NCBI GenBank assembly: GCA_039815145.1
Contig: JBCBZW010000041.1
Location: 1 to 38,617, forward strand
Source of the DNA: Pseudomonadota bacterium
GTDB taxonomy: Bacteria > Pseudomonadota > Gammaproteobacteria > Steroidobacterales > JBCBZW01
Direction: 5' to 3'
DNA length: 38,617 nt
Shown: piece after piece, positions 26,426-32,739 of the stretch
Position numbering within the stretch: position 1 is the first letter of the stretch
Layout: every line of letters starts with the position of its first letter
Made by a program: the position numbers and the translations under genes
Notes under the pieces: model-generated
What the model was told of the DNA's origin: nothing
What the model saw: the letters and a program-made list of their open reading frames with translations, nothing else
The model's database searches: none

Positions 26426-27964
<1,539 letters not shown>

Positions 27965-28012
27965 TGTGTCCTATAGAAAGTAGTAACTAAGTAAACAAAA
28001 GGTGATGACGAC

Positions 28013-28840
28013 CTAGTCGTCTTGAATGAGGTAGATGCCAATCCCCAGACGGCTCGTGCCACGCGATTTGCTGCCTTCGGGGTCCGCCTCGTGGCGGGCG
28101 AGCCAGTCATCGCTCTCCTGCAGCAGCGTGGCGGCTCGCGCTTCGACAAACTCGGCGAAGGCCTCCGCGCTCGTACTGGCGACGGCCTCACGGGAGGCCC
28201 GGCCTTCGAAGCGGCTGGGCGCCTCCGCGTCGCGGAACAGGTTGTAGTTGATGGTGTTGCCGAGGTCTTCGAGCACGGAGCCCCCGCGCACGATGGCGGA
28301 GAGATCCAGCTGCGCCGGCATGTAGTAGCGCTTCAGCACCCGCCAGCACCCGTCTTCCCCACGACTGATCGCCCCGACCTGCTCGAGCTCTCCGATCAGC
28401 GCTCGCGGGGGCAGATCCCCGGCGAAACGCTTGAGTAGTGCCGACAGGGAAGGTGCAGCGAGGTCGTCAGGGTTGTCGTCCGGTAGGGGCAGCGGACCCC
28501 CGGAGGCATCGCAGAAGTCGCCGTCGAGATGCCAGCCGGCGAGCACGCGCGTGGCGGGCAGCACGTAGCCGAGATCCCGATCCTCGGTCCGTTCCCGGGC
28601 CGATTTACGGATACGACCGACCTCCTTGCGGCTGATGCCGGTGAGGATCGCCACCCGGGCACTGTTGGTCTCGCGTCCCCGGATGCCGTAGTCCTCACCG
28701 GCGACATCCACGAAGACCGCCTTGGCCAGCTCCACGAAGTCCTTGAAGGGCACGCTGGAGCGAATCAGCAGCCGAGCGATGGGCCGAAGCATCAGGCGAC
28801 AGGCCCGAGCGATGGCTGAGTTTCGATTAGCATCGTCCAT
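28013..28840 (-). CDS. DUF6502 family protein, possible DNA-binding regulator
   Basis: A 275-aa cytosolic protein of the DUF6502 type. The N-terminal half contains LMLRPIARLLIRSSVPFKDFVELAK and a segment SARVAILTGISRKEVGRIRK (residues ~60-79) that looks like a helix-turn-helix, suggesting transcription regulation. The rest shows VLAGWHLDGDFCDASGGPLPLP and a conserved NTINYNLF. Function is not established for the family. The ATG at 28840 lies inside a perfect inverted repeat and only about 8 nt after a TATATT box. The DUF5666 lipoprotein gene follows 48 nt downstream, so the two are probably cotranscribed. Confidence 0.8.
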   Translation of the reverse strand: MDDANRNSAIARACRLMLRPIARLLIRSSVPFKDFVELAKAVFVDVAGEDYGIRGRETNSARVAILTGISRKEVGRIRKSARERTEDRDLGYVLPATRVLAGWHLDGDFCDASGGPLPLPDDNPDDLAAPSLSALLKRFAGDLPPRALIGELEQVGAISRGEDGCWRVLKRYYMPAQLDLSAIVRGGSVLEDLGNTINYNLFRDAEAPSRFEGRASREAVASTSAEAFAEFVEARAATLLQESDDWLARHEADPEGSKSRGTSRLGIGIYLIQDD

Positions 28841-28877
28841 ATGTGGTCAATATACGCCCACATATGGAGATTGAGAA
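28837..28877 (-). promoter_or_regulatory. promoter with operator-like inverted repeat over the DUF6502 start
   Basis: CCATATGTGG (28837-28846) and CCACATATGG (28858-28867) are exact reverse complements separated by 11 nt. On the minus strand the spacer contains TATATT (28849-28854), a -10-like box. TTCTCA (28872-28877), matching TTGACA at four of six bases, lies 17 nt upstream of it. The start ATG (28838-28840) is inside the promoter-distal arm. A transcript would begin within a base or two of the ATG, so it may be leaderless. A protein bound to the repeat would block the promoter; autoregulation by the DUF6502 protein is an inference. Confidence 0.6.
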
Positions 28878-31167: not shown

Positions 31168-31794
31168 TCACCCCGCCTGAGCGCGACTCGCCGCGTGGCG
31201 TCGGCGGGTGGCGAGGTCACAGACGGATTTCGCCGATCGCCGCCGCTGCACCCCTTTCAGTCGGCAGCAGGGGCAGTGACCCTCATCCATCTCCATCACA
31301 TGATGCACGTAGACGCCCGCACAGGCAGCGCAGGCCATGAGCACGAGCTCATCGCCGCGCTCCAGGGCCCGATACAAGCCCCAGGCGCGCTCGAAGCAGA
31401 AGTGGGGGGTGCGATGGAGGGACCGGTACGTCTCGAAGGCCAGGCAAAAGCGCAGACCGATCTCCAGGGGGTTGGCGCGTTCGAGATCGTCGAGGCTCCC
31501 GTCGGGCGCCAGCGCAAGCACATCGCTCGCCAGCAGGAGCATCGCCAGCGACGTCGCCTCGCACTGGTAGGTGGCGTTGCGCACGTAGATCGACGTGCGT
31601 GACGGTGACTTGCCCCGTTGCCGCTTGACGGCGTGCACCTCGTCCTTGAAGTACCGTCCGTAGAGGCGGCGGATACGGTCGTCCGACAGCCCCGTGCACG
31701 ACTTTATCGTGCACGTGCGCGCTTCGTGCCCAATCATCCGTAGGGCGAGTTCGGTGCGCTGGCGCTCATCCAGATAGCCGGCAATCTGCTCCAT
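31168..31794 (-). CDS. flhC: FlhC-like transcriptional regulator
   Basis: FlhC joins FlhD in the FlhD4C2 activator of flagellar class II genes in enteric and related bacteria. This 208-aa protein follows FlhC along its length: RTELALRMIGHEARTCTI resembles the N-terminal helix, GLSDDRIRRLYGRYF matches the LSRxRLxKLYKE region, and PHFCFERAWGLYRALERGDELVLMACAACAG (in parts) matches the stretch before the zinc site. The four zinc Cys are kept: Cys155, Cys158, Cys174 and Cys177 (CAAC...CPCC). Similarity to the enteric protein is low, so its targets may not be flagellar. AGGAGAG precedes ATG 31794. It is divergent from a tandem FlhD-like gene. Confidence 0.72.
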   Translation of the reverse strand: MEQIAGYLDERQRTELALRMIGHEARTCTIKSCTGLSDDRIRRLYGRYFKDEVHAVKRQRGKSPSRTSIYVRNATYQCEATSLAMLLLASDVLALAPDGSLDDLERANPLEIGLRFCLAFETYRSLHRTPHFCFERAWGLYRALERGDELVLMACAACAGVYVHHVMEMDEGHCPCCRLKGVQRRRSAKSVCDLATRRRHAASRAQAG

Positions 31795-31860
31795 CTTTCT
31801 CTCCTGATCGCGGTCCTACGATACCAGGTGTACCGCACCAATGATGATGCATCGCACAGG

Positions 31861-31886
31861 AAAATTGCGCCTTTTGGAGCAATTTT
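31861..31886. promoter_or_regulatory. operator-like palindrome P1
   Basis: AATTGCGCC (31863-31871), four T, GGAGCAATT (31876-31884): an inverted repeat with one mismatched pair, extended by AA and TT on the flanks. It lies 69 nt before the FlhC-like start. P2 is its near-exact reverse complement. Confidence 0.75.
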
Positions 31887-31903
31887 CGCGCCTCGGCTTC
31901 CCT

Positions 31904-31925
31904 AATTGCTCCATTTGGCGCAATT
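31904..31925. promoter_or_regulatory. operator-like palindrome P2
   Basis: AATTGCTCC (31904-31912), ATTT, GGCGCAATT (31917-31925). Both arms are identical to those of P1 read on the opposite strand. The centres of P1 and P2 are 41 bp apart, close to four helical turns, so proteins bound to both would face the same side of the DNA. P2 ends 115 nt before the FlhD-like start. Confidence 0.75.
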
Positions 31926-32040
31926 ATGGGGATGAAACCCGCCTAGGGGCAATGCCTAGAATCGAGTCAGAGCAGGCAGCGCGCGGCGAACCTTGAGCCA
32001 CACGACGGCTCGGAAGGGCACCGCGAAGGGAGATCTGGAG

Positions 32041-32739
32041 ATGGACGTCCTCAGTAGCTCGGCACCGCCGGGACCTTGGCAGCACAGCCCACCGGACGAG
32101 CGCGCGAGACGCGAACTCGCGGCGCTGAACGATCGGTTCCTCGAGGTCATCCGCCTGCTCGCCCTGGCCCCGGCGCACGCGGCGGACAACGCCGAGCAGG
32201 ATGCCCACATCCTGGGCTTGGACCTCACCCTCGCCGAACGTGTGGCCCACCTCCCCATGGCGCGCCGGCGCGAGCTGGCCGCCTGCCCCTACGCCCTGGT
32301 CGGGGTCGGGTTGGGCGATCTGGAGTTTTGGCGACAGACGGCCGGCCCCCACGGCAGGCCTGCTACCTACCGGCGCGCCCCGGGTGGCGGGAGCTTCTCC
32401 CCCGCCCACGCCGCAGCACTGCGAGACGCGCTGTTCCTGACCCTGGCCTACGCCTGGCATCTGGCTCAGACGGCCCCGGTGAGCGCGCGCTGGATGCTGG
32501 GCGCATGCCCGGAGGCTTTGACCTTGCTGCGCCAGCTGCCCTTCAGCAGCCTCGGTCGGATCGCCGATGAATGCCCCGGGCTGCTACGCGCTCGCCTGGC
32601 AGACCACAGACGGTTTTGGAACGACCTGGTGAGCGCCGTGGCGAGCGGCGCCCAGCAGAGCCGCTTCGCTGCCGTTTCACTGGGGTTGCAGCTATCGGCC
32701 GCGGCGGGCGCGCCGCGCAATCGAGAGGGCACTTCCTAG
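32041..32739 (+). CDS. putative tandem FlhD-like protein
   Basis: The 232-aa protein appears to contain two FlhD-like units. Unit 1 (residues ~25-98) reads ELAALNDRFLEVIRLLALAP, HILGLDLTLAERVAHLPMARRRELA and LGDLEFWR, resembling the FlhD pattern of LNLSYLLLAQRLI, FRLGINEEMATTLAALTLPQ and CHFRFD. Unit 2 (~124-196) repeats it with LFLTLAYAWHLAQ, WMLGACPEALTLLRQLPFSS and LADHRRFW. FlhD normally works as a dimer of ~115-aa chains, so this could be a covalent dimer. The assignment is by eye and supported by the divergent FlhC-like gene. ATG 32041 is preferred to TTG 31993 because GGGAGATCTGGAG precedes it. Its end overlaps the dehydratase gene by 4 nt (CTAG). Confidence 0.5.
   Translation: MDVLSSSAPPGPWQHSPPDERARRELAALNDRFLEVIRLLALAPAHAADNAEQDAHILGLDLTLAERVAHLPMARRRELAACPYALVGVGLGDLEFWRQTAGPHGRPATYRRAPGGGSFSPAHAAALRDALFLTLAYAWHLAQTAPVSARWMLGACPEALTLLRQLPFSSLGRIADECPGLLRARLADHRRFWNDLVSAVASGAQQSRFAAVSLGLQLSAAAGAPRNREGTS

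Follow-up and report, generated by a model that had tools for sequence, protein, structure and literature searches.

Two mirror-image 22-bp palindromes, P1 and P2, lie between a divergent FlhC-like gene and a tandem FlhD-like gene in the window, the 38,617-nucleotide stretch of DNA analysed here. They probably act as autoregulatory, outward-facing boxes of a divergent FlhDC branch, a reading in which the identity of the binder, the direction of regulation, cooperativity and looping are deduced from the sequence. The element is unique in its genome, part of the order conserves its geometry, and the two flanking genes are kin to the FlhDC family.

Architecture and genomic uniqueness of P1 and P2

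P1 (AATTGCGCCTTTTGGAGCAATT, 31863-31884) is composed of the arms AATTGCGCC and GGAGCAATT around a TTTT centre and P2 (AATTGCTCCATTTGGCGCAATT, 31904-31925) of AATTGCTCC and GGCGCAATT around ATTT, with the outer, conserved arm of P1 facing the FlhC-like gene and that of P2 facing the FlhD-like gene. A 19-bp spacer (31885-31903; like the palindromes, without strand assignment) sets the two centres 41 bp apart and has the same length in a relative of the same genus (G001). The two genes are separated by 246 bp (31795-32040), of which the element takes up 63 bp. Searching the window for AATTGCKCC-N4-GGMGCAATT returned exactly two exact matches, P1 and P2, and none when the window was dinucleotide-shuffled 100 times. 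Reverse-complementing the arms of P1 reproduces those of P2 at 18/18 arm positions, compared with 16/18 for a direct-repeat reading, and the four central bases are not mirrored. A preceding sequence-only reading, which described two mirror-image 22-bp palindromes 41 bp centre to centre with identical arms in opposite orientation, proves exact on both points; its interval of 31861-31925 captures the right element and the right end but starts two bases before the correct 31863.

Across the whole genome of the window (G000; 6.02 Mb in 295 contigs), P1 and P2 are the sole matches with 0-2 mismatches, and the 4 further places reached at 3 mismatches compare with 5 for a reversed-pattern control; the pattern is therefore not a dispersed repeat, and the genome holds no further near-perfect sites. 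Random genome-wide copies, named beforehand as the mark of a generic repeat, are absent from G000 at 0-2 mismatches beyond the two palindromes, and the scan proposed for a regulon of AATTGCKCC-N4-GGMGCAATT sites gave no clear target in this genome beyond the locus itself. A regulon of relaxed sites (TTGMKCC-N4-GGMKCAA, at most one mismatch) was also considered and found no support: with own sites counted, the pattern matched at 12 places in G000 (control, 10) and at 20 in G001 (control, 9), with no evident target common to the matches in the two genomes.

An FlhC-like protein and a putative tandem FlhD

The FlhC-like gene (31168-31794, minus strand) encodes a 208-aa protein that matches Pfam FlhC (PF05280) at 35.2 bits, above the curated cut-off of 27, finds FlhC 8j56_C in a PDB search at 4e-6, and, with 34.8 bits, stays far short of the 216 bits required by the flagellar FlhC equivalog model of NCBIfam. 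Four of its cysteines, C155, C158, C174 and C177, are invariant in 22/22 aligned sequences and are the FlhC-type predicted zinc-binding cysteines of the C-terminal part. In a midpoint-rooted tree of 38 FlhC-like proteins, the window's family groups with families f5 and f16 at a support of 85/86, under the tool's starred level, and locus L092 is placed away from this group. A plasmid collection searched with the protein gave no match. One relative (G028) carries an extra FlhC-like copy (L203, 1605-2306) with no evident FlhD partner, and in another (G078; L205, 1308-2671) the longest open frames of an FlhC-like/FlhD-like pair nearly touch.

The tandem FlhD-like gene (32041-32739, plus strand) encodes 232 aa from an ATG at 32041, a start chosen by eye, and appears to comprise two FlhD-type halves. 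Pfam and NCBIfam gave no match to the protein, which falls below the FlhD (PF05247) cut-off, and a single-sequence PDB search reached FlhD 8j56_A only at E 0.83. A profile of 38 sequences matched the N-terminal half to FlhD structures (8j56_A, 7.4e-9; 5hxg_B, 3.6e-8; 1g8e_A, 2.2e-7). In the AlphaFold (AF2) model (pLDDT 88.9), residues 118-226 of the C-terminal half match five FlhD entries at Z 7.7-8.1, with the next entry at 3.7; by the tool's own note a Z near 8 can be generic among helical proteins, and the weight lies in five FlhD entries standing apart from the rest. Foldseek alone returned no match to the model at E <= 0.001, and the FlhD fold was identified through the profile search and a structural second look (VIA), the Foldseek E-values alone not being significant. 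Because the profile finds FlhD with the N-terminal half and the model matches FlhD with the C-terminal half, the product looks like two FlhD-type domains in one chain.

The FlhC/FlhD-like label first given to the divergent genes is right for both, although the second matches no Pfam or NCBIfam family. The accompanying proposal of an operator for a dimeric regulator holds in part: the element is operator-like, genome-unique, kept in one same-genus relative and matched in geometry by several more distant ones, but "dimeric" is probably too simple, because the products of the neighbouring genes resemble the different subunits from which an FlhDC-type heteromer is built.

Within the order, 74/97 genomes encode FlhC-like proteins, a count that includes the genome of the window. 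Flagellin was found in 38/97, 34 with and 4 without an FlhC-like gene, and is undetectable in 40 of the 74 FlhC-like genomes, several of the assemblies behind both counts being incomplete. The genome of the window itself has three flagellin matches and one FleQ match. Pfam FlhD exceeds its cut-off in 0/97 genomes, and its two weak matches both lie beside an FlhC-like gene. Among named genomes, a scan identified 232 relatives, 80 of which were kept; the group names in their titles are Gammaproteobacteria or Proteobacteria, and the 80 include many Woeseiaceae, along with Peristeroidobacter and Thioalkalivibrio. A divergent FlhD-like gene stands beside the FlhC-like one in most loci among those listed, and a simple rule recovers this neighbour in 74/80. 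The canonical single operon of flhD and flhC was not encountered, the genes being divergent in the window and among the loci listed.

Conservation of sites and spacing among relatives

Alignment of relatives' intergenic regions, suggested at the outset as a check, reveals that the element is kept in G001 and that the 41-bp spacing recurs elsewhere with other arm sequences. In G001, whose FlhC-like protein is 89% identical, P2 is identical at 21/22 bases, and P1 retains its outer arm and CC-N4-GG core (one central base differs), with its inner arm partly lost. The inner arms of both palindromes change from GGAGC to GGATC in this genome, and both outer arms stay GGCGC. Family f5 carries TTGGTCC-N4-GGACCAA twice, 41 bp apart, in 3/3 genomes, with exact copies at the FlhC-like locus only; in both f1 and f5, near-perfect copies of the site are confined to this locus.

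At nine loci picked by eye for the spacing and mirror tests, 41 bp reaches a combined z of 11.4, against 4.7 for the next best spacing. It ranks top in L005, L007, L008, L018 and L019 and ties for top in L092 (6/9 in all), and is not the top spacing in L006, L009 and L011; the remaining 75 loci show raised values at many spacings, and 41 bp (6.3) does not stand out there from the highest value, 7.2. For L005, L006, L008, L018, L019 and L092 (6/9), the best mirror identity over 26 bp is higher than in any of 200 mononucleotide shuffles; it lies within the shuffles in L007, L009 and L011, where it is reached by 16, 110 and 19 of 200. Compared over the same 26 bp at 41-bp spacing, the mirror clearly outscores the direct repeat only in L006 (19 against 17), L008 (22 against 18) and L019 (23 against 20).

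Other relatives replace the P sequence with boxes of the CC-W6-GG or CCA-W4-TGG type (CCATATATGG-type). At least one such box is present in 74/84 deduplicated upstream regions (shuffle mean 11.6, maximum 19), which is not an order-wide figure, the 84 regions being drawn from the 110 best-scoring FlhC-like relatives (L005-L114) after removal of loci with less than 150 bases upstream and of near duplicates. Box pairs lie at exactly 20 bp in 19/84 loci and at exactly 31 bp in 14/84, with none in 50 shuffle rounds. Across 97 genomes, CCATATATGG-N10-CCATATATGG with up to three mismatches marks 26 places in 22 genomes, compared with 0 for a reversed-pattern control, and 20/26 sit just upstream of an FlhC-like gene by coordinates. 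Of the six off-locus pairs, one (in G051) precedes a DUF6502 gene, two similar ones lie near a Fic-like gene, and three show no evident pattern. The pair before the gene that resembles Fic by eye is common to G011 and G024, members of one genus (L147 ~2559, L148 ~2432). Twenty more distant loci (f2, f6/g18, f9, f10, f12), many of them chosen since their genomes lack DUF6502, possess the genes but show no boxes paired at 20 or 31 bp, and only 6/20 have any box at all; the box architecture thus belongs to part of the order, and the gene pair to more of it.

Candidate promoters and proposed mode of control

A consensus scan finds one promoter-like sequence toward the FlhC-like gene, TTGCCC-N18-CATAAT (31923-31952, minus strand; 9 of 12, with 1 found against 0.2 in shuffles), which reaches the edge of P2 and whose counterpart in G001 is TTGTCC-N18-CATAAT. 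As read from the sequence, the FlhC-like transcript would start at ~31916, inside P2. Toward the FlhD-like gene, a candidate -10, TAGAAT (31957-31962, plus strand), was identified by eye; it has no recognisable -35 and was missed by the consensus scan. A putative start at 31969 would place the centre of P2 ~54 bp upstream, with P2 spanning -44 to -65, inside the zone protected by AcaCD at its own promoters. A 29-base block, CAATGCCTAGAATCGAGTCAGAGCAGGCA (31950-31978), which lies upstream of the FlhD-like gene and holds the candidate -10, is identical in G000 and G001. In Woeseiaceae loci the boxes fall, by eye, in the apparent promoter zone toward the FlhC-like gene.

In the proposed mechanism, P1 and P2 would be two opposed boxes for an FlhDC-family complex built from the products of the adjoining genes (FlhC-like plus fused tandem FlhD), the conserved arm of each box facing one gene, and this complex would control its own synthesis. 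Binding would probably activate the FlhD-like gene, because P2 occupies an FlhDC-family activator position before a candidate promoter that has a -10 and lacks a -35. The same complex would probably limit the FlhC-like gene, because P2 overlaps the putative start of its promoter, which the bound complex would block; the repressing half is one that we infer, since the FlhDC-family complexes known so far are reported to be activators. That the spacing is fixed at 41 bp suggests binding of the two boxes on one DNA face, perhaps by one two-fold symmetric complex.

Comparison with known FlhDC-family systems

The published complexes offer a common style of site rather than a common sequence. In the accessible text of the cited reports, AcaCD of IncA/C plasmids, an FlhDC-family complex studied by experiment, recognises the core GCCCAAAATGGGC and protects ~40 bp located 31 bp upstream of the start (PMC5058578, PMC4605294), a footprint position that we read as like that of P2. 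AcaCD and FlhDC-SGI1 have in common with the window system a probable FlhDC-family complex in a non-flagellar role and a GC-flanked, A/T-tract inverted repeat (PMC4207636, PMC4605294, PMC5058578). Some divergent promoter regions of the AcaCD and SetCD systems hold two opposed boxes, each serving one promoter (PMC4207636, PMC4344509), and opposed boxes in a divergent region are likewise what AcaCD shares with the window. The AcaCD box differs from P in having five central bases, where P has four, and other flanks. Its core matches P1 or P2 at best at 9/13 positions, at P2, a score reached at 83 places in the window; P resembles the AcaCD core in style only, not in sequence. AcaCD serves plasmid and island genes with many targets, whereas the only target found for the window system is its own locus, and the tandem FlhD of the window has no counterpart mentioned for AcaCD or FlhDC-SGI1 in the portions of those papers available. 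SetCD of SXT/R391, similarly FlhDC-related and an activator, resembles the window in its back-to-back boxes for divergent promoters and a poorly conserved -35, and differs in residing on integrative elements (PMC4344509). The AcaCD motif is called unrelated to that of FlhDC by its authors (PMC4207636), and the SetCD motif is reported as drastically different from both (PMC4344509), again as far as the accessible text extends.

E. coli FlhD4C2 has in common with the window system FlhC-type cysteines, the FlhD fold, two inverted half-sites and an expected heteromeric complex (PMC9962212, PMC3510510). In E. coli flhDC is one operon, whereas the window genes are divergent and FlhD appears doubled in one chain. 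The E. coli box measures 42-44 bp with a 10-12 bp spacer (PMC9962212), compared with 41 bp between palindrome centres in the window, and window-type genes, unlike those for E. coli FlhD4C2, are found in many genomes without detectable flagellin. The identification of P as a canonical E. coli FlhDC box was tried and rejected: the half-site has 9 matches in the window at up to three mismatches, against 11.4 expected, 2/9 of them on P2, and its best agreement with P, 11/14, is not above chance across the window. No inverted pair of the form AAYGSSNNAAATAGCG-N10-12-inverse, with the 10-12 bp spacer, exists among these nine matches.

Alternative binders and alternative roles

That the encoded pair itself binds the palindromes is favoured by sites and genes staying together across many families, by the restriction of near-perfect copies to the locus in f1 and f5, and by the sites of comparable style that FlhDC-family complexes use. 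The main rival is an outside regulator, with DUF6502 proteins the most plausible candidates, that would bind the palindromes and control the FlhDC-like genes. By eye, inverted pairs of a similar style occur in several DUF6502 promoters, among them that of the window's own DUF6502 gene (CCATATGTGG-N11-CCACATATGG at 28837-28867), and the box-pair match directly upstream of the DUF6502 gene in G051 resembles that genome's FlhDC-like site. DUF6502 is present in 19/20 genomes with a strict pair at the FlhDC-like locus, compared with 65/97 overall; put the other way, and against autoregulation, strict pairs occur in 19/58 FlhC-like genomes with DUF6502 and in 1/16 without, a contrast confounded by kinship. 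We nevertheless regard an outside DUF6502 regulator as unlikely, although it is the strongest competitor: G000 has no P-like site at any of its four DUF6502 genes and no other P copy with 0-2 mismatches, and G000, G001, G029 and G041 share one unchanged DUF6502 site, TGGGATATATTTCCCA, whereas their FlhDC-like sites fall into three different sequences (G000/G001, G029, G041). Furthermore, G073 has the pair with no detectable DUF6502, and G001 keeps P1 and P2 without an adjacent DUF6502 gene, although it does carry three other DUF6502 genes.

The remaining alternatives concern what the palindromes do rather than what binds them. A looped or bridged operator, in which one two-fold symmetric complex or two touching ones would hold P1 and P2 together and repress both genes, is a version of autoregulation compatible with it, and we consider it possible but doubtful. 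The 41-bp spacing is exact in several lineages, the spacings of 20, 31 and 41 bp each come close to a whole number of helical turns, mirror identity stands above every shuffle in six of the nine picked loci, and the putative FlhC-like start falls inside P2. Mirror symmetry needs no loop, however, because AcaCD and SetCD boxes are oppositely oriented with one per promoter, and two independent outward-facing boxes explain it equally; in L018 the direct repeat surpasses the mirror at 41 bp (22 against 19), and L005 and L092 are tied. An RNA-level role, in which the palindromes would form hairpins within the FlhC-like mRNA leader, is very improbable: P1 would lie inside the leader if transcription starts near 31916, but P2 is at or upstream of that putative start, and a scan found no terminator-like site. 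Least probable of all is a repeat remnant or a chance pair of palindromes without function, for which we found no support, given the absence from shuffles, the uniqueness in G000, the retention in G001 and the recurrence of the spacing in relatives.

The DUF6502 genes have features of their own. The gene in the window (28013-28840) bears a perfect inverted pair at its start (28837-28867; 0 in shuffles), which resembles the boxes of FlhDC-like loci in relatives. Several DUF6502 promoters (among L153-L182) contain their own inverted repeats, by eye of two kinds, CATATATG-type pairs or TGGGATATATTTCCCA-like sites, which suggests an autoregulated, putatively DNA-binding family; no mention of DUF6502 was found in the literature, with most subscription journals outside the scope. 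Because the corresponding position in G001 shows neither the DUF6502 gene nor its 512-aa neighbour, DUF5666-like by eye, the segment they occupy (26426-28840) looks like an inserted or lost cassette.

Implications for the FlhDC superfamily

Returning to autoregulation by outward-facing boxes as the preferred reading, the loci may together represent an undescribed branch of the FlhDC superfamily spread across one gammaproteobacterial order, with FlhD doubled in the chain, divergent genes, mainly self-directed control, a chiefly non-flagellar role and boxes that change fast at a fixed helical spacing; as a whole, we advance this broader proposal tentatively. Non-flagellar FlhDC relatives as such are already known. 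The literature on FlhC in Woeseia and on FlhD/FlhC homologues, in the accessible text and with most subscription journals outside the scope, gave no account of the branch. A larger ring, which the fused FlhD may form, would account for the wider spacing of 41 bp.

FlhDC is the textbook master regulator, its relatives AcaCD and SetCD have boxes reported as unrelated, and the way in which such complexes read DNA is not settled. FlhDC-type genes are kept in many genomes without detectable flagellin, and the branch proposed here would provide many naturally matched proteins and neighbouring sites, constant in spacing and changing in sequence, through which the rules of recognition would become testable.
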